Source of the DNA: Hyphomicrobiales bacterium
GTDB taxonomy: Bacteria; Pseudomonadota; Alphaproteobacteria; Rhizobiales; Aestuariivirgaceae
Assembly: GCA_026990765.1 (NCBI GenBank)
Contig: JALXCV010000142.1
Location: forward strand, 1-36,357
Direction: 5' to 3'
DNA length: 36,357 nt
The notes beneath the pieces were generated by a model. That model worked only from the letters and a program-made list of their open reading frames with translations, had not been told where the DNA came from and ran no database searches. Position 1 is the stretch's first letter; each line of letters starts with the position of its first letter. The translations under genes and the position numbers were made by a program. Below are positions 5,498 through 36,357 of the stretch, piece after piece.

Positions 5498-5560
5498 AGG
5501 TATCTCCGGTAACAGCAGGGTATTTCCGGTTCTGCCGGATACGGAACTACCCTCATTGCC

Positions 5561-6754
5561 TTACCTCAATTTTGGCTTTTTACAGCCTATGCCTAAAAAG
5601 TCCGGTTCATTTTTGTTAACCATAGCAGCCGAATATGGGGTTGCCAGACCTTCCAGCTTCAACAGCCGGTTGATTTCATTATAATTTAGAACCCTGGCAA
5701 GCCGTTTGTCTGTTCTGGCCATATATTCAAGCATTCTGGCCGATACGACAGCACCTGGATGAAAACCGTCCATAAACTCGCAATCAGATGTTTGCAGGAA
5801 CTCGGCATCATGCAGATTAAAAACCTCAATACCGCGTTTTTTCAGTATTTCTGCTGCTCTGCCTATATAGTCATATTGCCCCGGCTTGCTCATGGCCCTG
5901 GAAATGGTTGGTGCAACCGGCGGGAACATTACTACTATCTTGATACCGGCAGCTTTGATTTTATCAATAAAATCTATCAGTAAATCAAGCTTTTCAAGGT
6001 CAGGCTCTTTGGCACGCTCAAAATGCTTGCGCTGTTTCTTGATTCGCGACAGCGTATTTCTGAACTGGTAATCATGCAGTTCTGTCCCGTCCACAACAGA
6101 CCATGGTGCATATATGCGATAACCATCAGCCCTGAAGCCGCTTTTATAAAATCTGGTTTTTACACCAAGATCGCAAGACGCCGGTTTCATCCCCCAACTG
6201 GAAGCTGAAATCAGTTCCGGCTGATTTAACACAGCTTCGATCAAAACCCGCAACATTGACGGGTCTGCAGGTGAAATCACATTCAGATGTTTCGCCTGCC
6301 CGGTGCGCAATCGGCGTTTGGGGTTCAGCAGCCAGAAATCAACACCAAGAATTATCATTTCAGGCTTTTTTACCGCCAGCATCCGCTCAAGCATTGCCGG
6401 TCCTTCGGCCAAATGGTTCATGGTCCGGCCCAGATTGGCAAATTTCCGGTTGAACATCTCAGATGCATATTGCAGCACCCTTGATGAACCCATTATCGTT
6501 ATTTCCGGTTTGATTTTCCGGTAAATAGCCAACTTGTATGCCGGATTATTATTGGCCGCAGTAGTGCCATATAAACACAAGTTTTCAGTGGAATGCTGAA
6601 TGCGTACTGCTTCGGTTTCGCTGATCAGATCCCCGGTGCCGATGAAATAGGCCCTGGCTGTAAAAAGGCAGATAGCAATAATGCCCAGCAGCGCCAGAAT
6701 GGAAAACACAAACAGTTTTGGCCGTGGCTTAAAACTGGAAGTATAAAAACTCAC
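5561..6754 (-). CDS. Membrane-anchored SGNH-like protein, partner of the MBOAT acyltransferase
   Basis: A 397-aa protein with one N-terminal transmembrane helix (residues 13-33), the rest predicted periplasmic. Two SGNH/GDSL-type landmarks are visible: MGSSRV at 88-93 (block I, nucleophile candidate Ser90 or Ser91) and DGFHPG at 329-334, with the Asp329/His332 pair expected of block V. Proteins of this kind (DltD, AlgJ/AlgX and relatives) complete acyl transfer to an exported polymer together with an MBOAT protein. The GTG at 6754 follows GGAGG by 5 nt and overlaps the upstream MBOAT gene by 26 bp, implying coupled translation. The target polymer is unknown; no glycan synthesis genes are nearby. 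Confidence 0.7.
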   Translation of the reverse strand: MSFYTSSFKPRPKLFVFSILALLGIIAICLFTARAYFIGTGDLISETEAVRIQHSTENLCLYGTTAANNNPAYKLAIYRKIKPEITIMGSSRVLQYASEMFNRKFANLGRTMNHLAEGPAMLERMLAVKKPEMIILGVDFWLLNPKRRLRTGQAKHLNVISPADPSMLRVLIEAVLNQPELISASSWGMKPASCDLGVKTRFYKSGFRADGYRIYAPWSVVDGTELHDYQFRNTLSRIKKQRKHFERAKEPDLEKLDLLIDFIDKIKAAGIKIVVMFPPVAPTISRAMSKPGQYDYIGRAAEILKKRGIEVFNLHDAEFLQTSDCEFMDGFHPGAVVSARMLEYMARTDKRLARVLNYNEINRLLKLEGLATPYSAAMVNKNEPDFLGIGCKKPKLR

Positions 6755-8177
6755 TGTCACCTCCAACTGTCAGAATAATTATAATCCACAAGGCCAGTAT
6801 GAATACCAGATGCACAAGATTGGGCACGAACCCTGCCTTGCCTTTAATACCCATATGGTAATTGGCTGCATTGGGTGCAAAAAACACAATCAGGAATGAA
6901 ATGATCAATAATGCGATTACATAGCCGGCCTTGTAGGAACCGGCGGCAAACAGGTTTTTGACTTCATTCTTTGTCATGTAAAGGTCGCCGGGATTGATCA
7001 GGCTTGAGATAATGTTCATCGCCCCGTCAACAGTTTCAGCCCGGAAAAATATCCAGCAGATCATAACGGATATGAATGTGATTGCTACTGCCACAACCCG
7101 CGGAATTCTAAACCAGGCAAATCTGGCATTTATCGACTGCCACAGATGGTGACCAAGCAGCAAAGCCCCATGCAGCCCGCCCCAGATAACATATGTCCAG
7201 CCCGCGCCATGCCACAAACCACCCAGCAGCATGGTGATCATCAGATTTAGATAACGCCGGGTCTTGCCCTTGCGGTTGCCGCCCAGCGGAATATACAGAT
7301 AATCTTTTAGGAACCGTGACAGTGTCATGTGCCAGCGCCGCCAGAAATCGGTAATGCTTTCAGCCTGATAAGGTGACATGAAATTTATCGGCAGGCTGAT
7401 ACCGATTAGCAGTCCCAGTCCGATAGCCATGTCGGAATAACCTGAAAAGTCAAAATAAAGCTGAAATGTATAGGACAGGGGGCCGAATATTGCTTCAGGG
7501 GTACTCAGTGCCGCCCCGGCATCGGCCTTGGCAAATACCACATTTGCAGTTGGTGCCAGATTATCGGCAATTATGGTTTTCTTGAACAAACCGATGGTAA
7601 ATATGCTCAAGGCTGTGGCCAGACGCGTTGCATCAAAGGCTTTCTTGCGTGTTGCAAATTGCGGCATCATCTCTGCATGATGCACGATTGGCCCAGCTAT
7701 CAGTTGCGGGAAAAACGTAACAAACACCGAATAATTCAGCAATGAAACCTTAGGAACCATGCCGCGATATGAATCAACCAGGAATGCTATTTGCTGGAAG
7801 GTGAAAAACGATATTGCCAGCGGCAGAACCAGATGCGGGTCAGCAATTTCCACTCCCGGCAGCAGGTTCAGATTGGCAACAGCAAATCCGGCATATTTAA
7901 AGAACCCGATCAGCGTCAGATTAAATCCGATACCTGCAATCAGCACCTGACGCCTGTATGATTTTGCCTGTGCCAGATATGATCCGATCACATAATTTAT
8001 CAGGATTGAGGCAACCAGCAATGGCACATATACCGGGTTCCACCAGCCATAAAACACCAAAGAAGCCAGTAACAGCCATGATAATCGCCAGCGTGCATCT
8101 GCTCGGTTGAGCAGAAAATACACAATTACGGTTATCGGGACGAACCCCAGTATGAATTGATACGAGTTAAAAAGCAT
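6729..8177 (-). CDS. AlgI/DltB-like MBOAT O-acyltransferase
   Basis: A 482-aa polytopic membrane protein of the MBOAT family. It has the AlgI-type signatures LPLAISFFTFQQIAFLVD (118-135), FPQLIAGPIVHH (156-167), FQLYFDFSGYSDMAIG, TDFWRRWHMTLSRFLKDYLYIPLGG (His283) and GGLWHGAGW with the invariant His323. In the family these proteins pass acetyl (or another acyl) groups from the cytoplasm across the membrane for O-acylation of exopolysaccharide, teichoic acid or similar. The downstream gene overlaps it and supplies the likely periplasmic SGNH partner. Whether the product is alginate-like or another polymer cannot be read here, so I avoid the name algI. Confidence 0.85.
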   Translation of the reverse strand: MLFNSYQFILGFVPITVIVYFLLNRADARWRLSWLLLASLVFYGWWNPVYVPLLVASILINYVIGSYLAQAKSYRRQVLIAGIGFNLTLIGFFKYAGFAVANLNLLPGVEIADPHLVLPLAISFFTFQQIAFLVDSYRGMVPKVSLLNYSVFVTFFPQLIAGPIVHHAEMMPQFATRKKAFDATRLATALSIFTIGLFKKTIIADNLAPTANVVFAKADAGAALSTPEAIFGPLSYTFQLYFDFSGYSDMAIGLGLLIGISLPINFMSPYQAESITDFWRRWHMTLSRFLKDYLYIPLGGNRKGKTRRYLNLMITMLLGGLWHGAGWTYVIWGGLHGALLLGHHLWQSINARFAWFRIPRVVAVAITFISVMICWIFFRAETVDGAMNIISSLINPGDLYMTKNEVKNLFAAGSYKAGYVIALLIISFLIVFFAPNAANYHMGIKGKAGFVPNLVHLVFILALWIIIILTVGGDSEFLYFQF

Positions 8178-8188
8178 ATATCAGGGCA

Positions 8189-8220
8189 GTTGGCATAAAT
8201 ACATAAAACAGAATGCCAAC
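8189..8220. promoter_or_regulatory. Inverted repeat upstream of the MBOAT gene
   Basis: GTTGGCAT (8189-8196) and ATGCCAAC (8213-8220) are perfect 8-bp arms separated by 16 bp, or about two helical turns centre to centre. They begin 11 bp upstream of the MBOAT start, in the 100-bp gap after the hypothetical gene. Position and spacing suit a dimeric regulator site or a long-loop RNA hairpin. Confidence 0.4.
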
Positions 8221-8277
8221 ACCTATCAGTTTTTATTCAGTTTATGAAGTCCTGCATCCAGCTTTTCACCAGTCAAC

Positions 8278-8772
8278 TCAGTATTTTGGCACCGGGCGGA
8301 TTTTCTCTAAAATTCCGTCAGCATTTGAGCTTAGACCGTAAATACCATGTTTTTCACCCTCAATGGCAAAATGCAGAACCGCCAGTGCCTTGCGCTTGCG
8401 GTCCGATACATATTCCAGTATCAGTTCATAACACGGCCCATTCTTGCGTGGTCGCATTTCCCTGATACCGCGTTCAATATTGGCAGCCACTTCCAGTTGC
8501 AGCAAGCACCAGTTGAACAGTTCCGGCTCACCAATATCGCGTATCCGGTTTATTGCATCGCGCCACTGGTCAGAACGTTTCAGCCGCCGGTTGGTGTGAA
8601 ACGGGCTGGCATGAACAAGCTTGTGCATCTTGCGCCATTTGGCAAATTCCAGTTCGCACTGTTCAATATATTTCAGTTCTGTGCCTTCATTCTGCAACCG
8701 GTCCACTATATCGCGTATTTCACAAATCAGTTGCGATTTGTCTTGTGCTGTTAATCTGCGTGGTGCGCTCAT
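8278..8772 (-). CDS. Hypothetical soluble protein, no recognised family
   Basis: I do not recognise this 164-aa protein. It is probably real: a good ribosome-binding site (AAGGA, 8 nt from the ATG) precedes it, it is the long frame of its interval, and amino-acid use is balanced. It has no signal peptide or transmembrane segment and is predicted mostly helical and charged, with a basic Arg/Lys-rich middle (TNRRLKRSDQWRDAINRIRD) and a C-terminal mixed region (ALAVLHFAIEGEKHGIYGL). It faces away from the phosphoesterase at 8851 across a 78-bp divergent gap and lies upstream of the MBOAT gene, but the 100-bp spacing gives no firm operon link. Confidence 0.65.
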   Translation of the reverse strand: MSAPRRLTAQDKSQLICEIRDIVDRLQNEGTELKYIEQCELEFAKWRKMHKLVHASPFHTNRRLKRSDQWRDAINRIRDIGEPELFNWCLLQLEVAANIERGIREMRPRKNGPCYELILEYVSDRKRKALAVLHFAIEGEKHGIYGLSSNADGILEKIRPVPKY

Positions 8773-8850
8773 TTGCGCATTCCTTTCAATTTACCCCTTC
8801 TCATATGGCTGCTAAAGGGAGGCAAATCAATATTCAAAGACAGATAAAAC

Positions 8851-9597
8851 ATGCTCATAGCTCATATAACCGACAGTCACATTGAGGTGCCTGAACCGCA
8901 AGGTGCGGGCCGGATTCGTGATTTTGAACGTGTGGTCAGCCATATTTCAGCTTTGGAAAAAGCTCCCGATTTCATTGTTCACACCGGTGACATTACCCAT
9001 TGCAACCGGGTTGAAGAATATGAAAAAGTAAGGCAGATGCTGTCATCGCTGACCATCCCTGTACTGATCATTCCCGGCAATAAGGATGAAAGGCAATTAT
9101 TCAGGCAGTTTTTCGGCACCCGGATTGATAGCCAGTCAGGCAGTATGAATTATTCAGTCAATGCCGGTGCCATAACCCTGCTGATGCTGGATACTTTGCA
9201 TGGCAAATCGAACAAGGGCTATATATGTGAGCAAAGGGCGCAATGGATCGATGCAAAACTTGCTGCAGCATCAGGTCCGGTTGCCATTTTCATGCACCAT
9301 CCGACCTATGACATGCCCCAGGCGCCGCATCCATTTCAGTTTGAGTGCCGTGATTCAGCTGACCGGTTTAACCAGATTATTGCTTCACATGAAAATGTTG
9401 CAGGGGTTTTTTGTGGTCATGCACACCGCAATACCAGTAAAATTATTGACGGTGTACCGGCCATGACCCTGACCGCCATGGCAATTGACCGGCGCCGTGG
9501 TGACTATCCGTCTGAATATACCGGCAAACCGGTTTATCAGCTTATCGAATTTGCAGATGATGGCAGTTTTGAAATGGAAATCCAGTTTTGTGACTGA
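8851..9597 (+). CDS. Class III (CpdA/Icc-like) metallophosphoesterase with GNKD motif
   Basis: A 248-aa calcineurin-like phosphoesterase. Metal-site motifs appear in order: DSH (Asp8, His10), GD (Asp47), GN (Asn77), MHH (His149/150) and GHAH (His190, His192). This layout matches class III cyclic-nucleotide phosphodiesterases (CpdA/Icc) and relatives acting on phosphodiesters such as glycerophosphodiesters. The usual GNHD motif reads GNKD here: Lys78 replaces the His that normally helps position the phosphate or protonate the leaving group. The metal ligands are intact, so activity with an altered substrate is possible. It is a lone plus-strand gene, convergent with corC (8-bp gap). I give no symbol because the substrate is uncertain. 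Confidence 0.8.
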   Translation: MLIAHITDSHIEVPEPQGAGRIRDFERVVSHISALEKAPDFIVHTGDITHCNRVEEYEKVRQMLSSLTIPVLIIPGNKDERQLFRQFFGTRIDSQSGSMNYSVNAGAITLLMLDTLHGKSNKGYICEQRAQWIDAKLAAASGPVAIFMHHPTYDMPQAPHPFQFECRDSADRFNQIIASHENVAGVFCGHAHRNTSKIIDGVPAMTLTAMAIDRRRGDYPSEYTGKPVYQLIEFADDGSFEMEIQFCD

Positions 9598-9605
9598 ATA
9601 TATTA

Positions 9606-10574
9606 TCAATCTGTCTTTTGCGGCCTGGTGCGGATTTTAATTTTTTTTACCCGGCGCGGATCAGATTTGGTAATTTCAAATTCGATACCGCTTTCATGCC
9701 GAACCAGTTCGCCACGCACCGGCACCCGGCCCAGCATGGAAAATATAAACCCGCCAAGTGTATCGGCATCTTCATCACGCTCATCGGGCAACAGGTCAAT
9801 CTTCAAAAGAGCCTCAACCTCTTCAATCGGGGCGCGCGCATCGGCATCATAATTGCCTGATCCATCAGCAATGATCATTTCAGCTTCATCAATGTCATGT
9901 TCATCGGCAATATCGCCAACGATTTCCTCAACCACATCTTCAATCGAAACCAGACCGTCAGTTCCGCCATATTCATCAACCACAATCGCCATGTGAATAT
10001 GGGTGGACTGCATTTTCAAAAGCAGATCAGATGCCGGCATGGAAGGCGGAACATACAGCACTTCGCGCATGATTCCAGCCTTGTTGATGGGTGTATCTGC
10101 ATCCGGGCGACAAACAGTTTTCGGCTTTTGCTTGTCATTTTCTTCAATGTCGTCAGCAGTCAGCCAGCGCAGGAAATCCTTTATGTGGATCATCCCTACA
10201 GGATCATCGAGAGTTTCGTGAAAAATCGGAATGCGCGAATGATTGGCTTCATCAAACAGTTTCAGCAACTGGCTGGTAGTGGCCTCATCTTCAATTGCGA
10301 TAATATCAGCCCGTGGCACCATGACATCATCAACGCGAACATCAGGAAACCTTAACAGGTTCAGCATCATTGAACGGGCATCTGGTGGAATATCTGATGT
10401 GCTGTTATCCGTTTCATGGCTTTCAATCACATCTTCCAGACTGGCTCTTAAAGTGTGATTGTGCCTGTGGCCAAACCAGCCACGCAGTGTTGCGAAAAAT
10501 CCGTTATTAACGGACCCCTCGCTGTCGATCTCTGGAGGTTCTTCTGCTGAATTGCTGACTGTATCGTCTTGCAT
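9606..10574 (-). CDS. corC: CorC/HlyC-family CBS-domain protein
   Basis: A cytoplasmic protein of the CorC/HlyC family. It has a variable acidic N-terminus, then paired CBS domains starting at VDDVMVPRADIIAIE and containing SRIPIFHETLDDPVGMIHIKDFL and MAIVVDEYGGTDGLVSIEDVVEEIVGDI. The C-terminal CorC_HlyC domain follows (about 240-322) and includes DTLGGFIFSMLGRVPVRGE. Family members are tied to Mg/Co export but biochemical proof is limited. ATG 10574 has AAGG 5 nt upstream; an ATG at 10604 inside ybeY is possible but has no ribosome-binding site. It is the last gene of the fur-miaB-phoH-ybeY-corC run; the lnt gene that often follows in Hyphomicrobiales is absent. Confidence 0.88.
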   Translation of the reverse strand: MQDDTVSNSAEEPPEIDSEGSVNNGFFATLRGWFGHRHNHTLRASLEDVIESHETDNSTSDIPPDARSMMLNLLRFPDVRVDDVMVPRADIIAIEDEATTSQLLKLFDEANHSRIPIFHETLDDPVGMIHIKDFLRWLTADDIEENDKQKPKTVCRPDADTPINKAGIMREVLYVPPSMPASDLLLKMQSTHIHMAIVVDEYGGTDGLVSIEDVVEEIVGDIADEHDIDEAEMIIADGSGNYDADARAPIEEVEALLKIDLLPDERDEDADTLGGFIFSMLGRVPVRGELVRHESGIEFEITKSDPRRVKKIKIRTRPQKTD

Positions 10575-10587
10575 AATAGCCTTCACG

Positions 10588-11082
10588 CTAATTGTGGTTT
10601 GCATATGGGTTTGCTATTTCAAGGCGGTTTAGCGCCCTGATTTCCTTGTTTTCCATGGCTTGTGCTTGCGCATCATCTTGATGATCATCGCCGAAAAGAT
10701 GAAATAATCCGTGTACAGCCAAATGAATAAAGTGGTTTTTTACCGGTTTTTTCTGCTCCAGCGCCTGTTTCGCAATAGTTTCATGCGCAAAAATCAGATC
10801 ACCAAGGAAAATATGGCCATTTTCGCATTTGCTGCCAAAAGGCGCCGGGAATGAAAGAATATTGGTAGGTCGGTCCTTTTCCCGCCAGTCCCGGTTCAAC
10901 TGGCGGACCTGTTCATCACTACCAAGCATCACCGAGATGGACAAAGCTTGCCCGTCAGTTTCCTGTTCTAGCAGGCCAGCGTCAAACGCCAGTTTCAAGA
11001 TATTGTTCCAGTCATTGTTAATATCCCACAGATTATCATCTATCTGCAGCTGAATTTCAAGTTCTGGTATCATTCGGGTCAT
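10588..11082 (-). CDS. ybeY: Endoribonuclease / rRNA maturation factor YbeY
   Basis: YbeY is a zinc-dependent endoribonuclease needed for 16S rRNA 3' maturation and ribosome quality control. The product (164 aa) carries the metal motif HGLFHLFGDDH at residues 124-134 (His124, His128, His134), preceded by the conserved NRDWREKDRPTNILSFP and LGDLIFAHET segments. The start is 9 bp after the phoH stop and the order phoH-ybeY-corC is conserved. An in-frame ATG at 11073 is an alternative start. Confidence 0.93.
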   Translation of the reverse strand: MTRMIPELEIQLQIDDNLWDINNDWNNILKLAFDAGLLEQETDGQALSISVMLGSDEQVRQLNRDWREKDRPTNILSFPAPFGSKCENGHIFLGDLIFAHETIAKQALEQKKPVKNHFIHLAVHGLFHLFGDDHQDDAQAQAMENKEIRALNRLEIANPYANHN

Positions 11083-28721: not shown

Positions 28722-28748
28722 TGCAAAAGGCCCGTTTTGATGATTGAA

Positions 28749-28754
28749 TATAAT
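28749..28754 (+). promoter_or_regulatory. Candidate -10 element for the MBL-fold gene
   Basis: A perfect TATAAT occurs in the 121-bp divergent gap between the kinase and the MBL-fold gene, about 90 bp before the latter's ATG. No good -35 lies 16-18 bp upstream, so this is weak support. A short inverted repeat (GAAGT/ACTTC, 28782-28795) lies downstream. Confidence 0.25.
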
Positions 28755-28842
28755 CAGACAGATTGCCGCAATTTCATTTACGAAGTGTTTACTTCCCCTC
28801 GCGCAAGGCCTAATTTGTCAGCTATCATGGAGATTAAAAAAG

Positions 28843-29616
28843 ATGAAAATTACCCTTTTATGTGAAAATCAGGTTTGTGACATGAAGTGGCATGCTGAAT
28901 GGGGTTTTTCAGCACTGATAGAGCATGAAAACGGGTCAGTGCTGTTCGATACTGGCTATTCAGATGTCTATATCCGCAATGCCGATCTTGGCGGGATCGA
29001 TCTGGACAGGGTTGATCTTTTATGCCTGTCACATTTTCATCTTGATCATACTCGCGGCCTGCTGAACCATCCATTCAGTGACAAGAAGCAGATTATCATG
29101 CACCCGCGAATCCTTGATGCCATGCGCAGACCGGCAAAGAAAAAGGAGCGTGAAACCTATTCCCGTATTTTGCAGGTGATTGAATCTGATTTTGATATTG
29201 TGACCGCAACCACCCCGTATGAATTTGCTGAAGGGGCATGGTTCATGGGCGAGATACCGCGGCTTAATGATTTTGAGCATGGCGGTTACAAGGATGATCC
29301 AATGCCTGATGACACCGCCTTGTGTTTTGCAACTGACAAGGGTGCCATTGTGGTCGCCGGTTGTTCACATGCCGGTATCTGCAATATTGCCCAATATGCA
29401 AAACAGATAACCGGTCAGCCGCTATATGCGATAATAGGCGGGTTTCACCTGCTGGAAGATGAAAACCCGCCAGTATCTGAAACCATAGAGTTTTTCAAAA
29501 CCGAAAAGGTGGAGAATTTGTTGCCCATGCACTGCGTTGATTTTCCAGCCATGGTGGAATTTCACAAGGCATTCGGAATTGAAAAGTTTTCAGCTGGTGA
29601 TGTAATCGAGATTTAG
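28843..29616 (+). CDS. Metallo-beta-lactamase-fold hydrolase of the COG1237 (DHPMR-P synthase-like) type
   Basis: A 257-aa cytoplasmic MBL-fold protein. Metal ligands are HFHLDHT (His64, His66, Asp68, His69), GCSHAG (His176) and GGFHLL (His202). The pair VLFDTGYS and VVAGCSHAGICNI is characteristic of the group that includes archaeal dihydropterin ribofuranosylaminobenzene phosphate (DHPMR-P) synthase, but most bacterial members have no assigned function. The ATG at 28843 has GGAG 10 nt upstream; a longer frame from 28744 lacks support. Its stop overlaps the stop of the convergent UPF0280 gene by 4 bp. It might be a ring-opening or amide hydrolase for the adjacent catabolic operon, but that is speculation. 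Confidence 0.78.
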   Translation: MKITLLCENQVCDMKWHAEWGFSALIEHENGSVLFDTGYSDVYIRNADLGGIDLDRVDLLCLSHFHLDHTRGLLNHPFSDKKQIIMHPRILDAMRRPAKKKERETYSRILQVIESDFDIVTATTPYEFAEGAWFMGEIPRLNDFEHGGYKDDPMPDDTALCFATDKGAIVVAGCSHAGICNIAQYAKQITGQPLYAIIGGFHLLEDENPPVSETIEFFKTEKVENLLPMHCVDFPAMVEFHKAFGIEKFSAGDVIEI

Positions 29617-30446
29617 CGCGCTGATGACAGGGCCAGCTTTCCTGTCTGGACAATTTCACCGGCCAGAAACAACACCGCCCCGGCAATCAGATTGTCCCTG
29701 ACCATTGCTTCGGCCCTGACCAGTCCGGCGGCAAGTGCCATTGCTGTTTGTTCCTCATCAAGCGGCCCGACATCTGTGGTAACCAGCCTTTCGCCCAGAT
29801 CACTGTCGAGGGACAATTCAATGGCTGGCTGGCGTTTGATTGCCGGATGGCCAGGAAGGTCAACCGCATTGGCTATCAAGGTTGCGGCCACATCGGCCAT
29901 TGCCGCATTTTCGGCCACCACGCTCACTGCATCAGCAATACCCAGAGAAAAGCTGCGACCACGCCAGCCCGATGTTGCAATACCGCGATACGGGTCGGTT
30001 GATCTGATAGTGATAGAGCTTTTCATATCCGCTGCCATAACCGCCCTGATCTTTTGACCTTCATCCAGATAAAACCCGGTATCCCCGCCATTATTGACAT
30101 AGGCCTTTTCAATTCCTTCAATGGAACTGATGACTGAAATGATTTCATCAGCCACTGCTCCGGCAACTGCGGCCATAGGCGTTACAAATTCATTACCAAA
30201 TAATATCGCGGCCCGATACATTCTGCCAGCTACTGCTCCTTTTGGCTTCATGTCCGTTGTCACCTGTTGCCGCAACAGGCAAAGCTCGCTGACTATTTCA
30301 TCAAGTATCGAAGCAAATCTTTTTTCAGCTCTTGCATAGGCTTTTTGCTGGCCTGTCCCTGATGCTTCAACAATCAGGTCAATAGGCCCATGTTGCAGAT
30401 GCAGTCTGTTGCCGTCAGGCAGCATGCGGGCAATGGCAGCTTGCAT
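29613..30446 (-). CDS. UPF0280 family protein (ApbE-like flavin transferase superfamily)
   Basis: A 277-aa protein I assign to UPF0280, an uncharacterised branch related to ApbE. ApbE proteins move FMN from FAD onto a Thr or Ser of a target protein. Visible ApbE-like landmarks are AYVNNGGDTGFYL (116-128), GIATSGW (155-161) and VSVVAENAAMADVAAT (174-189), which recall the GGD, TSG and ADAxAT motifs that bind FAD and Mg. The ATG lies 1 base past the stop of the reductase-like gene, so the two are almost certainly translated together. No signal peptide is apparent, unlike most ApbE proteins, suggesting a cytoplasmic target. The likely client is the upstream Fe-S reductase, whose characterised relative has a covalent flavin. 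The longer frame into the upstream gene has no support. Confidence 0.78.
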   Translation of the reverse strand: MQAAIARMLPDGNRLHLQHGPIDLIVEASGTGQQKAYARAEKRFASILDEIVSELCLLRQQVTTDMKPKGAVAGRMYRAAILFGNEFVTPMAAVAGAVADEIISVISSIEGIEKAYVNNGGDTGFYLDEGQKIRAVMAADMKSSITIRSTDPYRGIATSGWRGRSFSLGIADAVSVVAENAAMADVAATLIANAVDLPGHPAIKRQPAIELSLDSDLGERLVTTDVGPLDEEQTAMALAAGLVRAEAMVRDNLIAGAVLFLAGEIVQTGKLALSSAR

Positions 30447-30447
30447 T

Positions 30448-31887
30448 TCATTGCCGCTTTGCTGCCGGCAGCATCTGGAAGCTGTCACCATATTCGCCGC
30501 CATTGCAAAGAACATCATCAAGCTGGCGCACCGCATCCATATGACCGCCCAGTTCAAGATAAAGCTGGTAAGGCATGGTAAACTCTATGGGCGCAACGAT
30601 GGCCGGGGTCGGCACATAGCCAAATGAGCACTCGGGCATCTCCATTACATCCACCATTATGGTAATGCCTCCACCGGGCCAGACAAAAGCCTGCGCCCCG
30701 CCACAGGTTAACCGGGTTTGCGAATGTTTTACCGATCTGGTCAGCTTCACCGGGTTTTTCGTCACCCCGGAGCGCAGCGAACCACCCGCGCCTGCCATGA
30801 ACATTATCGAACAGACAGATGGTTCGCAATTCTCGCTGATCAGTTCAACGCTAGCTTCAAGGCTTTCGGGCAGATCATGTTTGACCGGTTGCAGATCATC
30901 ATCAAGCACATAATAGGCTGATTGCTCACCGGTTGTGGAAACCATCAAAATGGTCATACCCGGCCTTGCGCCCTTGCGGGCATTGAAATCCCCCAGTATG
31001 ACCAGAGGATCTTCAATATTGGTGCCACCCCAGGAAAGACCGGGTTCTGCCACCTGAAAATATCTGCCCGGTGTGGAGCGCCGCCCGTTGATTTTTATTC
31101 CGCTCGGCTGCCAGCCAAGCACCTTTCCGGCCTGATGTTCAGACACCACCCCGGTAATATGATCATCAACCACCACCACCTCGTCAACCAGTCCCAGCCA
31201 TTGCGAGGCAAACATGCCGATAGTGGCCGATCCGCAACCTACCCGCATGCGTTCTTCGCGCCTGCCATCAATGATTGGTGGTTGCCCGGCCTCGATGATG
31301 ATTGTGGAACCATTATCGATGGCAAGCCTGACCGGTTGCCGGTTGCATAAATTCATCAGCGTATCGCAGGTGACATTGCCTTCGCGTTTGGAGCCTCCGG
31401 TCAGATGATCGACCCCGCCAAGTGACAGCATTTGCGAACCATATTCGCTGGTCATTACATGGCCCACCGCTTCCCCGTCGGCCCGGACAATATCGCATTC
31501 ATTGCCAATATGCCGGTCAGTATCAATCTTGATCTTTACTCCGCAATAAGAAAAGATCGCTTCTGAAACCACGGTGATAAAATCTGCCCCGTCAATCTGG
31601 CTGGCAATGATAAACGGTGCCGGTTTGTAATCAGGATAGGTGGTGCCAGCCCCGACAGCGGTAACTGTCAGTTCATCACCGGTAAAATTTTCACCATCCC
31701 GGTCAGATTTCAAAAACGGCTTGATCGCCCCGCCAGCTTTTAGGGTTTTGTTGATGATGGTGACCGGGTCACAGCGGATTATCCGGCCAGCCTCATTGGC
31801 ATAGCGGTCACAGGCTCCAGCGCGCCCCTCAGCGATGAAACACATGACCGGGCAGGCTTCACAGCGGATTTTGTCCGATCCGCCCAT
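30448..31887 (-). CDS. 6-hydroxynicotinate reductase-like Fe-S flavoprotein
   Basis: A 479-aa cytoplasmic protein I place in the 6-hydroxynicotinate reductase family by its N-terminus, CEACPVMCFIAEGRAGACDRY. Cys9, Cys12, Cys16 and Cys26 look like [4Fe-4S] ligands. More than ten further Cys are spread through the chain (for example Cys115, 131, 174, 181, 218, 354, 359, 395, 420, 461), enough for extra clusters. The Eubacterium barkeri enzyme reduces 6-hydroxynicotinate to the tetrahydro-oxo ring and was reported to hold one [2Fe-2S], two [4Fe-4S] clusters and a covalent flavin. GCGSAT (217-222) partly resembles an ApbE flavinylation site. ATG 31887 overlaps the stop of the molybdenum hydroxylase gene by one base. 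The family is fairly confident; the substrate is not. Confidence 0.7.
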   Translation of the reverse strand: MGGSDKIRCEACPVMCFIAEGRAGACDRYANEAGRIIRCDPVTIINKTLKAGGAIKPFLKSDRDGENFTGDELTVTAVGAGTTYPDYKPAPFIIASQIDGADFITVVSEAIFSYCGVKIKIDTDRHIGNECDIVRADGEAVGHVMTSEYGSQMLSLGGVDHLTGGSKREGNVTCDTLMNLCNRQPVRLAIDNGSTIIIEAGQPPIIDGRREERMRVGCGSATIGMFASQWLGLVDEVVVVDDHITGVVSEHQAGKVLGWQPSGIKINGRRSTPGRYFQVAEPGLSWGGTNIEDPLVILGDFNARKGARPGMTILMVSTTGEQSAYYVLDDDLQPVKHDLPESLEASVELISENCEPSVCSIMFMAGAGGSLRSGVTKNPVKLTRSVKHSQTRLTCGGAQAFVWPGGGITIMVDVMEMPECSFGYVPTPAIVAPIEFTMPYQLYLELGGHMDAVRQLDDVLCNGGEYGDSFQMLPAAKRQ

Positions 31888-34574
31888 CAACTGCCTCCAG
31901 CCGCTTTAATTGCCGCCAGAACCCGGTGGGGCAGGGCGGGAAGCTGTGTTATTCTGGCCCCGCTGGCATCGTGAATGGCATTGATGATTGCCGGGGCGGT
32001 CGGGATCAGCACATGTTCTCCCAGACCTTTGGCGCCCATCGGTCCTTCCGGGTCGGTTTTCTCAATGAAAATGGAAGTAACTTTCGGAACATCGCCAAAG
32101 GTCGGTATCAGATAATCATGCAGATTCGAGGTCTTGCCATCTATATATTCCTCCATCAGGGCCAGCCCCAGCCCCTGGGCAATGCCGCCTTCAATCTGCC
32201 CCTCGGCCAGCACCGGATTTATCACCCGGCCAAGATCATGGGCCGCAGTGATATGGGTAACCGTTACCTTGCCGGTAAGCATGTCCACTTCAACCTCAGC
32301 CAGTTGCGCCCCGTAACCATAAAGCCCGTAAGGCTTGCCCTGACCATTCTCATCCAGCGGCGTGGTTGGCGGGTCATAGGTTTCTTCAGCCATCAGCACA
32401 TAACCATATTCATTGGCCTCAAGCCCGGTCAGATCAATATGCCGGGTGGCGGTTTTGTCGCTTATGGTCAATTGGGTGCCGACAAGTTCGATCAATGCCT
32501 CATCGCCCATATTGCTCATCCGCAATATCTGTTCACGCAATGCCCTGCCTGATGCTTCTGCCGCCTTGCCGGTGACATAGGTCTGGCGAGAGCCGGATGT
32601 CTTGCCACAATCAGGGGTTAATGCGGTATCTGGACCGACCAGTTCAAACCGCTCAATATCCACTCCCAGCGCATCGGCGCAGATCTGGGTTATGACCGTA
32701 TTGGAACCCTGACCGATATCAATGGCTCCCTGATGGATATAAAGATGCCCGTCAGCGGTAATGCCAAGTCTGATGGTTGACGGGTTGGGAAGAGCAGTAT
32801 TACCGCAGCCATACCAGCATGAAGCAACCCCAATACCGCGTTTGACATGTTCTGACTGGCTATTGAATTTCAGGGCTTCATCGCCCGCCTTTTGCCATTG
32901 TGGTTTGAGAGCCTCAAGGCACTCGACAATGCCCATGGCCTCCATCGTCTGGCCGCAAACCGACTTGTCACCGTCAACCAGCGCATTGATCAGGCGAAAT
33001 TCCAGCCGGTCAATGCCGCATTTCTCCGCCAGTTCGTCAAACAGGCTTTCCTGCAAGATTGTAGCCTGGGGAATGCCAAAGCCCCTGAAAGCCCCCGAGA
33101 TCGGGCCGTTGGAATGACAGGCGCTGGTATAGGCGCCATAATCTGGCACCCGGTATGGACCGCTGGCATGTACCGGCACCCTGTTGGCAACGGTCGGACC
33201 CCAGCTTGCATAGGCACCAGTATCAAATTTGCCTTCAAACAACATGCCGGTTATTCGCCCGTTTGCATCAGCCCCGATTGAGGCACTGGTTGTTGATGGG
33301 TGGCGTTTGGTGGTTGAACTCATCGATTCACCACGATTGTAAACCATCCGGCATGGTTTGCCGGTCTTAAGGGTTACCAGCCCCAATAGTGGTTGTAGTG
33401 ATACATCCAGTTTGGAGCCGAAACCACCACCGGTCGCCGGTGGAGAAATCCTTATACGCTCAGGATCAAGCCCCAGAACAATAGCCGTATCGTCTCGATC
33501 CATGATTGGAGCCTGGGTTGAGGCTGATATAACCAGCATGTCACCATCCATCCAGGCGCTGCCAGCTTCCGGCTCGATATAGGCATGTTCGACAAAGCCG
33601 GTCTGCATGTGACCGGTTGCAACATGGGCACTTGCAGCAAGTGCTGCCCTTGCATCACCCCTGACAACCTTGCCGCTGATCAGCACATTATCGGGTTTGT
33701 CGGCATGTACTGGAACATTATCTGCCAGTTGCTCCCAGCTAACCGGGAAATCGTCCAGATTTACCTTGCTGACAATATCTGGATCACCGGCAATCAGCGC
33801 TATGGCCTCACCGCGCATTCTTGCCTTTCCTTCAGCCAGTGCCGGCTGGTCGGCAAAGGGCGGGATAACCCCGAAACAGTTCTTGCCGGGAATATCGCTG
33901 GCGGTCAGAACCACTTCTATATTCTGTTCGCGCCGCCAGCTTTCAATATCGCCAAAACTGAATGCGGCATGCCGGTGAGGCGAGCGTACTGCCCGCACCA
34001 GCAGGGCATCTTTCGGCCATTGATCAGCACCATATTTTTCAGTCCCGGCAGCTTTTGCCACCCCGTCAATTCTTTCAAGCCGCGCCCCAACTGCCTTGCC
34101 TGCCGGTGCCGTGGTCTTTGGCTCGCTGAAATCATGGGCGGCAACTACTGCATCGACAATCTTTTGATAACCCGTACAGCGACACAGGACCCCGGATAAA
34201 CCATCTTCAACCTCTTTTGCGGTTGGATGCGGGTTCTTCTCAAGCAGGGCGGTTGCTGCCATCAGCATTCCCGGTGTGCAGATGCCGCATTGCACCGCCC
34301 CATGATGCAGCATTGATTGCTGCAACGCGGTGCTAGCATCATCGGGCAGGCTTTCAACCGTGGTGATCTCGCAATCATAGACTTTGGCTACCGGGGTCAG
34401 GCAGGAACATACCGGCTCGCCATCTATCAGCACCGTACATGCCCCGCAATCACCGGCATCACAACCAACCTTGGTGCCAACCAGCCCCAGTTCTTCACGC
34501 AGGACTTGTGACAATCTGCGCGATGGGTCAGACTTTATCAGGCATTTCTTGCCATTGACTATTATACTGCTCAT
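31887..34574 (-). CDS. Molybdenum hydroxylase, fused [2Fe-2S] and molybdopterin-binding subunits
   Basis: An 895-aa xanthine-dehydrogenase-family protein combining small and large subunits. Residues 1-148 carry two [2Fe-2S] sites: C38/C43/C46/C58 (GCDAGDCGAC) and C96/C99/C131/C133 (QCGIC, CRC). Residues about 165-895 bind molybdopterin, with GGGFGSK (382-388), SGAFRGFG (Arg497, matching the substrate-contact Arg of xanthine dehydrogenases), GQGS (621-624) and GAKGLGE with the catalytic Glu853. The family hydroxylates carbon next to ring nitrogen in purines, nicotinate and similar compounds. It overlaps the FAD gene (ATGA) and the reductase gene (TGATG), so all are co-translated. Lack of the CoxL AYRCSFR loop argues against CO dehydrogenase. 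The true substrate is unknown. Confidence 0.9.
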   Translation of the reverse strand: MSSIIVNGKKCLIKSDPSRRLSQVLREELGLVGTKVGCDAGDCGACTVLIDGEPVCSCLTPVAKVYDCEITTVESLPDDASTALQQSMLHHGAVQCGICTPGMLMAATALLEKNPHPTAKEVEDGLSGVLCRCTGYQKIVDAVVAAHDFSEPKTTAPAGKAVGARLERIDGVAKAAGTEKYGADQWPKDALLVRAVRSPHRHAAFSFGDIESWRREQNIEVVLTASDIPGKNCFGVIPPFADQPALAEGKARMRGEAIALIAGDPDIVSKVNLDDFPVSWEQLADNVPVHADKPDNVLISGKVVRGDARAALAASAHVATGHMQTGFVEHAYIEPEAGSAWMDGDMLVISASTQAPIMDRDDTAIVLGLDPERIRISPPATGGGFGSKLDVSLQPLLGLVTLKTGKPCRMVYNRGESMSSTTKRHPSTTSASIGADANGRITGMLFEGKFDTGAYASWGPTVANRVPVHASGPYRVPDYGAYTSACHSNGPISGAFRGFGIPQATILQESLFDELAEKCGIDRLEFRLINALVDGDKSVCGQTMEAMGIVECLEALKPQWQKAGDEALKFNSQSEHVKRGIGVASCWYGCGNTALPNPSTIRLGITADGHLYIHQGAIDIGQGSNTVITQICADALGVDIERFELVGPDTALTPDCGKTSGSRQTYVTGKAAEASGRALREQILRMSNMGDEALIELVGTQLTISDKTATRHIDLTGLEANEYGYVLMAEETYDPPTTPLDENGQGKPYGLYGYGAQLAEVEVDMLTGKVTVTHITAAHDLGRVINPVLAEGQIEGGIAQGLGLALMEEYIDGKTSNLHDYLIPTFGDVPKVTSIFIEKTDPEGPMGAKGLGEHVLIPTAPAIINAIHDASGARITQLPALPHRVLAAIKAAGGS

Positions 34575-35404
34575 TGCGCCAACTCCCTGATTAGCCGGCG
34601 AACCTGTATCAGCGCCAGTTGATTGCGATATTCAGCGCTGGCGCGTACATCATCGATCGGTGACAGACTGTCAGTTACCAGTTCACTGGTAATGATCTGA
34701 TCAAAATCAGCACTGGTATTTTTCCCGGCAAGCACTGCTTCAAGCCTGTCAAGCCGGGTGGCCACCGGCCCGCATGCCCCGACTGCTATGGATATTTCCT
34801 CAATCCGGCCATCTGAAATGACAGCCCTTGCTGCCGTCATGGCTATTGATATTACCATATATTTGCGCGCCCCGAATTTGCTGAAAGCTGCAATGCCTCT
34901 GGCTGCGGTTTCGGGTATCATTATACGGGTCAAGATTTCACCCGCTTTCAGTGCGGTAGTTCCAGGCCCGGTAATAAACTGGTTGAGCGGCAATGTGCGA
35001 GTGCTGGATATTGAGTTGATCTCCACCTTTGCATCCAGTGTCAAAAGGGCCGGCACCCCGTCAGCAGCAGGTGACGCATTGCACAAATTACCGCCAATGG
35101 TGGCCGCATTCTGAATCTGGATTGACCCTATCTGGGAGGCGGCAGCTTTCAGCCCGTCAAAAGCGCAGGGCAGATCAGTTCCGGCAATCTGGCTCCAGCT
35201 ACTTGCCGCTCCAATACGATAATAACCATCTACCCGTTCAATCTGTTTTAACGGCTCAATGCCACTTATATCAATGAAATCACCTGCAGGTTGTTCCATC
35301 TGGGTGGCCGGCAGAATATCTGTACAACCAGCCATTATCCGGGTATTGCCGCCAGCAGCAAGCTCAAGCGCCTGTTGCAGATTGTCAGGGCGATAATAGC
35401 TCAT
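34571..35404 (-). CDS. FAD-binding subunit of the molybdenum hydroxylase
   Basis: A 277-aa medium subunit (XdhB/CoxM type) that passes electrons from the [2Fe-2S] clusters to FAD and on to an acceptor. AGCTDILP (25-32; more often AGGTDL) and QNAATIGGNLCNASPAADG (around 98-116) form the FAD-binding motifs, and a CO_deh_flav_C domain follows. The ATG at 35404 has GGAG 7 nt upstream and is the first gene after a promoter with overlapping palindromes. The stop overlaps the next ATG by 4 bp. Together with the fused gene downstream it would make a complete two-subunit enzyme. Confidence 0.9.
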   Translation of the reverse strand: MSYYRPDNLQQALELAAGGNTRIMAGCTDILPATQMEQPAGDFIDISGIEPLKQIERVDGYYRIGAASSWSQIAGTDLPCAFDGLKAAASQIGSIQIQNAATIGGNLCNASPAADGVPALLTLDAKVEINSISSTRTLPLNQFITGPGTTALKAGEILTRIMIPETAARGIAAFSKFGARKYMVISIAMTAARAVISDGRIEEISIAVGACGPVATRLDRLEAVLAGKNTSADFDQIITSELVTDSLSPIDDVRASAEYRNQLALIQVRRLIRELAQ

Positions 35405-35420
35405 ATCAAGGCTCCAAACT

Positions 35421-35436
35421 CATTTGTACACAAATG
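35421..35436. promoter_or_regulatory. GntR/FadR-type operator palindrome
   Basis: CATTTGTACACAAATG has perfect 7-bp arms (CATTTGT/ACAAATG) around a 2-bp centre. TTGT..ACAA fits the TnGT...ACnA pattern of GntR (FadR-subgroup) operators. It abuts the -10 element at 35437-35442 and covers the predicted transcription start, so binding would block transcription of the catabolic genes. The regulator itself is not in the window. Confidence 0.65.
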
Positions 35437-35464
35437 ATTATACAGACAATTGTGATTGGTTCAA
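35437..35464 (-). promoter_or_regulatory. Sigma-70 promoter for the hydroxylase/reductase genes
   Basis: On the minus strand TTGAAC (35459-35464) and a perfect TATAAT (35437-35442) are 16 bp apart. Transcription would start near 35430 and leave a short leader to the FAD-subunit ATG at 35404. An ACAATTGT palindrome (35446-35453) lies in the spacer. This separates the enzymes from the transporter genes upstream, allowing independent control. Confidence 0.65.
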
Positions 35465-35468
35465 CCAA
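35456..35468. promoter_or_regulatory. Second palindrome over the -35 element
   Basis: TTGGTTCAACCAA is a perfect 13-bp palindrome (6-bp arms, 1-bp centre) that contains the -35 box TTGAAC. It may be a second regulator site, or a modest hairpin at the 3' end of the transporter transcript, 27 bp after the LivF stop. Confidence 0.5.
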
Positions 35469-35494
35469 AGTGTTTTATGCTTGTGGCTGCAAAA

Positions 35495-36190
35495 CTAAAC
35501 TCCGACATATTTGCTGATCAGGCTGTCATCGGTTTTAAGAGTTTTGGCGGTTACGGTTTCACGCGTATGGCCGTTTTCGATAAAGGTTACCCGGTCCGCC
35601 AGCGACAAGACCGCATCAATGCGCTGTTCAACCAGTATCACCGCCACTCCGTCATGCTTCATTTTAACAATCACCTGCCGGATAAGCTCGATCATTGATG
35701 GCTGCAAGCCTTCTGTTGGTTCATCCAGCAACAGCACTTCAGGTTCGATGCACAATGCTCTGGCCGTTGCCAGCATTTGCTGTTCGCCGCCTGACAGGGT
35801 TTGCGCGCGTTGATCAAGACGCTCGCGCAATCGCGGAAACAGATCCAGCACCTTTTTGCGGACATCCATGCCCTTGCCGCGTACCATCAGCCCGATTTCC
35901 AGATTTTGCGCAATCGTCAGTTCAGAGAACAGGCGGCGCCCTTGCGGGATATAGCCAATGCCGCGTTTGGGTATCTCATGGGCAGCAAGGCTGGATATTA
36001 CCTCATTATCAAGGCTTATGCTTCCCGCCCGCAATGCTACCAGCCCCATAATCGCCTTCATTGTGGTGGTCTTGCCCGCCCCGTTGCGCCCCATCAGGCA
36101 GGTGATTTCACCGGCTCTGGCGACCAGTGAAACATCGTGCAATATCTGCGTTTGTCCATAAGCTGCGGCCAGATTTTTGATCTCAAGCAT
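35495..36190 (-). CDS. LivF/UrtE-type branched-chain amino acid family ABC transporter ATPase
   Basis: A 231-aa ATPase of the HAAT (LivF) group. It has Walker [11 protein letters not shown]-loop YIPQGRR, signature LSGGEQQ, Walker [12 protein letters not shown] and the LivF-type LVEQ at the switch position. The GRNGAGKTT plus [10 protein letters not shown] combination is closer to UrtE-like members than to classic LivF (GANGAGKST), which hints at an amide or heterocyclic solute rather than leucine. ATG 36190 is chosen because the N-terminus [13 protein letters not shown] is canonical; the longer frame runs into livG. It overlaps the livG stop by 8 bp. Rest of the transporter is outside the window. 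Confidence 0.88.
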
Positions 36191-36357
36191 CACCGCCCCC
36201 CAGATAGGCTTCCTGCACCGCCTTGCTGGCTCGTATCTCATCAGGAGTACCCTGTGCCAGCACATCGCCAAAATTGAGCACGGTAATATATTCGGCAATC
36301 TCCATCACCACATCCATATTATGTTCGATCAGCAAGATCGTGGTATCACCGGCAATG
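36183..36357 (-). CDS. LivG-type ABC transporter ATPase, C-terminal fragment
   Basis: The last 57 codons are present; the gene starts beyond the right edge. The translation reads [22 protein letters not shown], containing the H-loop His of the LLIEHNM motif. [19 protein letters not shown] and [11 protein letters not shown] follow to the stop, the standard LivG C-terminus. Its stop overlaps the downstream LivF start by 8 bp. Permease and substrate-binding genes should lie further upstream. Confidence 0.88.

Follow-up and report, generated by a model that had tools for sequence, protein, structure and literature searches.

The window analyzed here is a complete contig of 36,357 nucleotides (C142) from a Hyphomicrobiales bacterium whose genome comprises 3.1 Mb in 169 contigs and is 97% complete. 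The right end of the window contains six genes, all on the minus strand, that encode a UPF0280 protein, a protein of the 6-hydroxynicotinate reductase (Hnr) family, a molybdenum (Mo) hydroxylase in which the iron-sulfur (FeS) and Mo parts are fused, the flavin adenine dinucleotide (FAD) subunit of that hydroxylase, and two ATPases of an ATP-binding cassette (ABC) transporter of the LivF and LivG types. The stop codon of the FAD-subunit gene and the ATG of the hydroxylase gene overlap by 4 bp, the hydroxylase stop codon and the ATG of Hnr (31887) overlap by 1 bp, and the stop codon of Hnr (30448) lies 1 bp apart from the ATG of the UPF0280 gene (30446). These coordinates agree with a first-pass annotation of the DNA, which described six co-directional genes with overlapping or near-touching ends and one 90-bp gap. 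The features of the window are:

29613–30446, minus strand: UPF0280 family gene, 277 amino acids from the ATG at 30446 (NCBIfam NF003322; AlphaFold/Foldseek ApbE-like fold)
30448–31887, minus strand: Hnr-like gene (6-hydroxynicotinate reductase family), 479 amino acids from the ATG at 31887 (identity to annotated genes)
31887–34574, minus strand: fused [2Fe-2S] and molybdopterin subunit of a xanthine-dehydrogenase-family hydroxylase, 895 amino acids (Pfam Fer2, Fer2_2, MoCoBD_1, and MoCoBD_2)
34571–35404, minus strand: hydroxylase FAD subunit, 277 amino acids (Pfam FAD_binding_5 and CO_deh_flav_C)
35405–35494, no strand: 90-bp gap separating the hydroxylase genes from the transporter genes, from the FAD subunit to LivF (flanking stop and start coordinates)
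35495–36190, minus strand: LivF-type ABC transporter ATPase (Pfam ABC_tran; UrtE/LivF-like, below NCBIfam cut-offs)
36183–36357, minus strand: 3′ part of the LivG-type ATPase gene, truncated at the end of the contig and continuing on contig C118 (157-bp contig overlap)

The unit had been taken as complete in the window, but the contig end cuts through it. The right end of C142 overlaps contig C118 by 157 bp with 1 mismatch, the LivG reading frame is continuous across the joint, and the transporter genes of relatives such as L077 and L078 occur in the same order as across the joint. Inspection of the genes to the right of position 36357, which the first-pass annotation had called for, revealed genes for a LivK-type binding protein and a HyuAB amidohydrolase on C118:

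C118 (locus L006), continuation of the unit: livM, livH, the LivK-type binding protein gene, and a membrane-protein open reading frame (ORF) (ORF and family searches)
C118 (L006), divergent strand: hyuA (5526–7580) and hyuB (7577–9334) (family searches)
C118 (L006), same strand as hyuAB: cuyA-like gene (9331–10347) and cuyB-like gene (10347–11015) (family searches)

Two samples were searched for this gene content: 289 alphaproteobacterial genomes (this one included) and 398 genomes drawn from the phylum. Hnr is encoded by 44 of the 289 genomes, again including this one, and by 32 of the 398, of which 3 lie outside Alphaproteobacteria. Neighborhoods were compared in three sets that consist of 40 of the 43 other Hnr genomes, 80 named loci (the best 80 of 587 from one genome-contig scan), and 19 further loci (18 genomes of the phylum sample plus G231). 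Loci of high GC content were mapped by homology-guided gene maps in place of greedy longest-ORF maps; ORFs F13, F14, and F18 of the homology-guided maps look like antisense artefacts. A UPF0280 gene at a distance of no more than 600 bp from Hnr, and on its strand, is present in 40/40, 78/80, and 18/19 loci of the respective sets. It was not found in L117 and L207, where contig ends cut the locus, or in L088, which has ABC-ATPase matches in its place. The fused hydroxylase, at an identity of at least 45%, is present in 35/40, 75/80, and 8/19 loci. A recount at this threshold drops L066 and L075, in which the match is 26% identical and of a different type, and many loci of the 19-locus set carry a different hydroxylase. 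Because it is conserved across the loci of relatives, the adjacency of Hnr, UPF0280, and hydroxylase genes exceeds chance, and these conserved neighborhoods bear out the earlier view that importer, Mo hydroxylase, Hnr family, and UPF0280 form one functional island. Absence of reductase and hydroxylase co-occurrence in related genomes had been named beforehand as a result that would speak against such a unit; the two were found together in relatives. The UPF0280 family follows Hnr beyond the mapped loci as well. NF003322 has 48 matches in the 289 genomes, which comprise all 44 Hnr genomes at an E value of 1.1e-39 or better and four weak, sub-cut-off matches in the other 245 (4.6e-7 to 6.5e-4). 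Among 14 control genomes, those of Methanocaldococcus and Methanosarcina match the model below its cut-off.

Genes on 26 plasmid records match the Hnr-like protein at 57–68% identity over at least 80% of its length, and 17 of these carry the annotation 6-hydroxynicotinate reductase. The protein is ~65% identical to the Hnr proteins of enamidase loci L188–L191. A tree places the Hnr proteins of loci with enamidase and loci with HyuAB in one family. Cysteines 10, 13, 17, 27, 116, 219, and 355 are invariant in 53/53 aligned rows and could carry FeS clusters. The protein has no match to a Pfam or NCBIfam family at 1e-3, and a Foldseek comparison of its model with the PDB gave no match at an E value of 1e-3. 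A stretch that resembles the C-terminal barrel of GcvT (residues ~117–203; window ~31281–31539, minus strand) is the top but weak fold match, with Z no higher than 5.0. Pfam GCV_T_C matches 26/26 Hnr members at E values up to 10 (best, 3.6e-5; this protein, 0.2). This outcome is no evidence for a new fold. The Hnr of Eubacterium barkeri carries a covalently bound flavin and reduces 6-hydroxynicotinate to 1,4,5,6-tetrahydro-6-oxonicotinate (THON). Its homologue in strain SG-6C is 42% identical (PMC3511419). Locus L076 (G028) shows Hnr as two neighboring matches that lie in different frames, indicative of a disrupted or mis-sequenced copy.

The first-pass annotation had pointed out that the expected ring-opening enamidase is not in the window and that the pathway may end differently. 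This observation extends to the whole genome: the best match to enamidase in its 169 contigs, at 97% completeness, has an E value of 5.7e-4, and no orthologue was found. HyuAB, encoded on C118, appears to take the place of enamidase as ring-opener. Genomes were queried with the enamidase of L041, which matches the solved E. barkeri enamidase (2vun) with an E value of 2e-109, and with the HyuB of this genome, which is thus its own query. The thresholds (enamidase, at least 67%; HyuB, at least 63%) were set after the match lists had been viewed, and the values that follow hold among the matches listed. Enamidase of the L041 type is found in 17/44 Hnr genomes, and the remaining 27/44, this one included, have HyuB at or above threshold; at these cut-offs no genome has both ring-openers and none has neither. 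The best HyuB in Hnr genomes is either at least 63% identical or, where listed, no more than 46%. In the 245 genomes that lack Hnr, enamidase exceeds the threshold once (G082, 71%) and more distant copies of 40–42% occur in G060 and G202. HyuB reaches 63% in none of the 245; the top values are 62% (G217), 60% (G114), and 59% (G182), followed by several of 50–57%. G082 belongs to the same genus as G197, which has Hnr and enamidase, and may possibly have lost Hnr recently.

The mapped loci never contain both ring-openers. Enamidase is found in 10, 0, and 8 loci of the 40-, 80-, and 19-locus sets and HyuAB in 16, 23, and 4; in the 80 named loci, for which flanks alone were scored, the remaining 57 have neither. 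Genomes with HyuAB beside Hnr include those of Mesorhizobium, Aminobacter, Chelativorans, Pseudooceanicola, and Frigidibacter and a SAR116 genome. In Pseudosulfitobacter pseudonitzschiae, hyuA and the end of the hydroxylase gene overlap by 4 bp, and in Fuscovulum ytuae hyuA begins directly after a transporter ATPase gene. Relatedness among the genomes inflates the simple probability of the partition, so that a tree of Hnr carries more weight. This tree includes 40 of the 44 Hnr rows; L076, which is frameshifted, and G064, G087, and G231, which have no usable locus, were left out. By parsimony, the ring-opener label changes 6 times on the tree (bootstrap range, 6–7), with at least 4 changes forced by supported branches. 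One change can be followed gene by gene. G210 (L227) and G104 (L228) belong to the same family and are sisters on the Hnr tree, and their loci share an order of Mo subunit, site X, two isochorismatases, a short-chain dehydrogenase/reductase (SDR), and a next ORF. Site X is occupied by enamidase in G210 and by HyuB-HyuA in G104. The genes around it are 69% (Mo subunit), 48% and 71% (isochorismatases), 68% (SDR), and 89% (next ORF) identical between the two genomes. Between its AA_synth and Mo-subunit genes, G210 has further genes that are absent from G104.

HyuAB is composed of the domains PF01968, PF05378, and PF02538 (Hydantoinase_A and Hydantoinase_B), and N-methylhydantoinase and 6yra are its closest relatives of solved structure. 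HyuA carries the sequences GVDVGGTFTD, DMGGTS, and SGPASG, which we take to be the ATP-site motifs of its fold. Kinship to oxoprolinases and hydantoinases, together with these presumed ATP motifs, makes HyuAB suited to the opening of a lactam with ATP. The pair shares its HyuA and HyuB domains with caprolactamase CapAB, ATP-dependent N-methylhydantoinase, and 5-oxoprolinase; it differs from these enzymes in scoring below both caprolactamase equivalog cut-offs and in being tied to Hnr islands.

These observations probably are best explained by a catabolic island for nicotinate-type compounds (pyridine-3-carboxylates) in which HyuAB opens the lactam and UPF0280 is an accessory to Hnr. A LivKHMGF-type ABC system would import the ring compound. 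The FAD/FeS/Mo hydroxylase would then introduce a water-derived oxygen next to the ring nitrogen to yield 6-hydroxynicotinate, which Hnr would reduce to THON with low-potential electrons, probably from ferredoxin. HyuAB, as an ATP-dependent amidohydrolase of the oxoprolinase/caprolactamase type, would open the resulting lactam here and in 26 of the 43 other Hnr genomes sampled, and carbon would proceed through glutarate and glutaryl-CoA to crotonyl-CoA. UPF0280 would be dedicated to Hnr and most likely assist in the insertion of its cofactor. The reductive dearomatization put forward in the first-pass annotation gains support from the analogy with E. barkeri. Synteny, orthology, and glutarate-pathway genes make nicotinate the most likely substrate. 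Genes for a GcdH-like acyl-CoA dehydrogenase and a protein like succinate-glutarate CoA-transferase adjoin Hnr in both G210 and G104, and this genome encodes homologues of the transferase (54% identical) and the dehydrogenase (65%). Such glutarate-pathway-like genes fit the Azorhizobium route via glutarate. The binding proteins that adjoin enamidase clusters L041 and L044 are 70–71% identical to the one encoded in this unit. A gene for 2-oxoacid:ferredoxin oxidoreductase (KorA) lies near Hnr in 4/40 loci, this genome has KorA in a gene split over two contigs, and a ferredoxin-NADP reductase gene adjoins Hnr on two annotated plasmids; reduced ferredoxin is a reasonable candidate for the electron donor of Hnr.

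Several findings weigh against this reading. HyuAB scores 508.7 and 321.6 bits against caprolactamase equivalog cut-offs of 1000 bits each. The whole-genome searches scored no more than 4 candidates per genome for HyuB and 6 for enamidase, distant enamidase-like matches occur in 2 of the 27 HyuB genomes (G104, 42%; G064, 36% and partial), and enamidase genomes carry HyuB paralogues of up to 46% among the matches listed. All glutarate-pathway matches fall below equivalog cut-offs, and for the dehydrogenase another model outranks the glutaryl-CoA one. KorA, at an E value of 1e-60, is encoded by only 22/44 Hnr genomes, compared with 42/245 others; as a universal electron source it thus held only in part. 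(The total of 64 genomes includes G053, whose KorA is 37% identical; a second tally leaves it out and has 41 non-Hnr genomes.) The remaining points concern UPF0280 and the type of the hydroxylase.

The UPF0280 protein scores 346 bits against NF003322 (cut-off, 290), and its AlphaFold model has a predicted local distance difference test (pLDDT) score of 89.4. Foldseek ranked DVU1097 of Desulfovibrio (2o34) as the best match to the model, followed by ApbE flavin transferases; all 33 matches with an E value of 1e-3 or better are 2o34 or ApbE/Ftp/FmnB chains. The template-modeling (TM) scores against the ApbE chains among them are ~0.3–0.45. If the flavin of Hnr is covalently bound as in E. barkeri, UPF0280 would be the obvious transferase. 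We take COG2122 to be the same family as UPF0280. PMC5764234 ties COG2122 to DUF39 and homocysteine synthesis in Methanosarcina and Desulfovibrio and states that its likeness to ApbE seemingly stops short of the flavin-binding region. In Vibrio cholerae ApbE, His257 is the general base, and clients of ApbE carry the motif D-x-x-[ST]-G-A-[ST] (PMC12052999). An alignment of 37 UPF0280 rows has no invariant His column, the best being 33/37 near the N-terminus, and the client motif occurs in 0/53 Hnr rows. The nearest lookalike, Thr377 in an NqrC-like [SA]GVT stretch, is Val in 2/53 rows and therefore cannot be an obligate flavin site. UPF0280 thus resembles ApbE and COG2122 in its predicted fold, with DVU1097 as the best structural match, and differs from them in lacking an invariant His, in having a client without the ApbE motif, and in its partner, which is Hnr here and DUF39 for COG2122. 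The absence of both His and target motif, combined with the published doubt about the flavin region, disfavors a simple ApbE role. Columns of Hnr that are always Ser or Thr, such as 246, 250, and 384, are the remaining candidate flavin sites. UPF0280 very probably acts as a dedicated maturation factor of Hnr, as its constant company in these genomes suggests, and covalent flavin attachment is a plausible, if tentative, proposal for its chemistry.

The nearest solved relatives of the 895-residue hydroxylase subunit are aldehyde oxidoreductases (1sij and 1dgj), and nicotinate dehydrogenase (3hrd) is also among them. Its type differs from that of the hydroxylase in enamidase locus L188, from a genome of the same taxonomic order, which has a 1171-residue Mo-subunit gene where this unit has a fused FeS/Mo subunit plus a FAD subunit. 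The entry substrate could therefore differ, which counts against nicotinate and leads to the alternative that HyuAB islands with the same architecture take another pyridine carboxylate such as picolinate or an N-methylated relative. Hnr would then produce a saturated lactam such as 6-oxopipecolate, the six-ring analogue of 5-oxoproline, and HyuAB would convert this lactam with ATP to an amino-dicarboxylate, as might suit a member of the oxoprolinase/lactamase family. Some HyuAB loci (L059 and plasmid L231) also carry a gene for a ring-hydroxylating oxygenase that possibly acts upstream, but so do some enamidase loci. The fused hydroxylase occurs with either ring-opener, and L196 combines HyuAB with a hydroxylase of another type. 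Enamidase and HyuAB replace one another about six times on a single Hnr tree and also at one syntenic position, and glutarate-pathway-like genes are found in both members of the swap pair. We consider a different substrate unlikely on these grounds.

Still less probable is a scheme in which HyuAB acts on another amide, in or outside the pathway, and the lactam is opened by an unrecognized enzyme, for example an AA_synth (PF06684) protein. AA_synth genes are found in 25/40, 67/80, and 18/19 Hnr loci, and AA_synth and MarR genes follow UPF0280 in many loci of relatives, those of Mesorhizobium for example; this genome has one AA_synth gene, paired with a MarR regulator gene on contig C123 (L203:9933–10952), apart from the main island. 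AA_synth adjoins enamidase and HyuAB alike, so it cannot explain the constant presence of one of the two in the sample. An ordinary xanthine, hydantoin, or purine operon whose Hnr-like protein has drifted to another reduction is very improbable: xanthine dehydrogenase models are among the NCBIfam matches of the hydroxylase and relatives of HyuAB are annotated as hydantoinases, but all listed xanthine dehydrogenase models score below cut-offs and Hnr is a single family across enamidase and HyuAB loci.

The nicotinate reading with HyuAB as lactam opener turns the puzzle of a missing gene into a testable rule, namely that each sampled Hnr genome has exactly one of two unrelated ring-openers. One group within the large and mostly unassigned HyuAB family would thereby obtain a specific function, and UPF0280 a specific client protein, which is relevant to the unexplained role of UPF0280 in homocysteine synthesis. 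It is tempting to speculate further that Alphaproteobacteria have two interchangeable reductive nicotinate routes, one through enamidase and the other through a so far undescribed HyuAB-family enzyme that hydrolyzes THON with ATP, and that both need UPF0280 as an obligate, non-canonical cofactor transferase of Hnr. We rate this extension as less likely than not. If it holds, ApbE-like protein-modifying enzymes would have a second, cytoplasmic branch defined by UPF0280, the principle of which is possibly shared with the COG2122–DUF39 pair.

Work by Alhapel in 2006 is said to have described the nicotinate fermentation of E. barkeri, in which Mo hydroxylase and then Hnr act, as proposed here, and which reportedly ends in propionate; glutarate is the expected product in this unit. 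This genome further differs from E. barkeri in its single fused FeS/Mo subunit and in having no detected enamidase orthologue. Reduction of 6-hydroxynicotinate to THON was first found in E. barkeri and later in the aerobe Azorhizobium caulinodans, and a cluster for the first three steps is present in Azorhizobium, Bradyrhizobium japonicum USDA110, Rhodopseudomonas palustris HaA2, and strain SG-6C, where it also encodes two conserved proteins of unknown function and a putative transporter (PMC3511419). We read these three steps as hydroxylation, Hnr, and ring opening. PMC9304392 likewise describes the THON route and a hydrolytic opening of the ring, for which E. barkeri uses enamidase. The Azorhizobium/SG-6C pathway (PMC3511419) and the present unit have in common that genes for Hnr, a hydroxylase, an ABC transporter, and conserved proteins of unknown function are clustered, and that the ring is reduced without oxygen in an aerobic alphaproteobacterium. 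The present unit differs in having HyuAB rather than enamidase, a fused FeS/Mo subunit with a separate FAD subunit, and a transporter of the SBP1 type. In the open-licence literature, titles and abstracts among the matches listed contain no link of HyuAB to a nicotinate or THON pathway and none of UPF0280 to Hnr, which is weak evidence of absence; a search for homarine operons and passages on riboflavin catabolism (PMC12746152) yielded nothing of relevance to this unit. The term "undescribed" in the first-pass annotation therefore holds only in part: the route via THON and its cluster are in print, and public records already name genes of this kind 6-hydroxynicotinate reductase and UPF0280 family protein, whereas the HyuAB step and the role of UPF0280 seem unreported. 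The island is real, widely conserved, and of a known kind, with a ring-opening step and an accessory protein that seem to be new to the literature searched.

Additional genes surround the island. The ORF at L006:4031–5644, between the binding protein gene and hyuA, encodes a conserved membrane-protein-like product without a Pfam or NCBIfam match and recurs in 5/40, 24/80, and 1/19 Hnr loci. The cuyA-like and cuyB-like genes (L006:9331–11015) exceed the NCBIfam cut-offs of CuyA (D-cysteate sulfo-lyase) and CuyB (cysteate racemase), respectively, and the last 4 bp of hyuB overlap the start of the cuyA-like gene. The 139 other mapped Hnr loci yielded neither gene, so a cysteate module appears to have been added to the hyuAB transcript in this genome. 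On the other side of the island, a gene of the metallo-beta-lactamase fold (window 28744–29616) is convergent with the UPF0280 gene, overlaps it by 4 bp, and has weak, sub-cut-off matches to lactonases.

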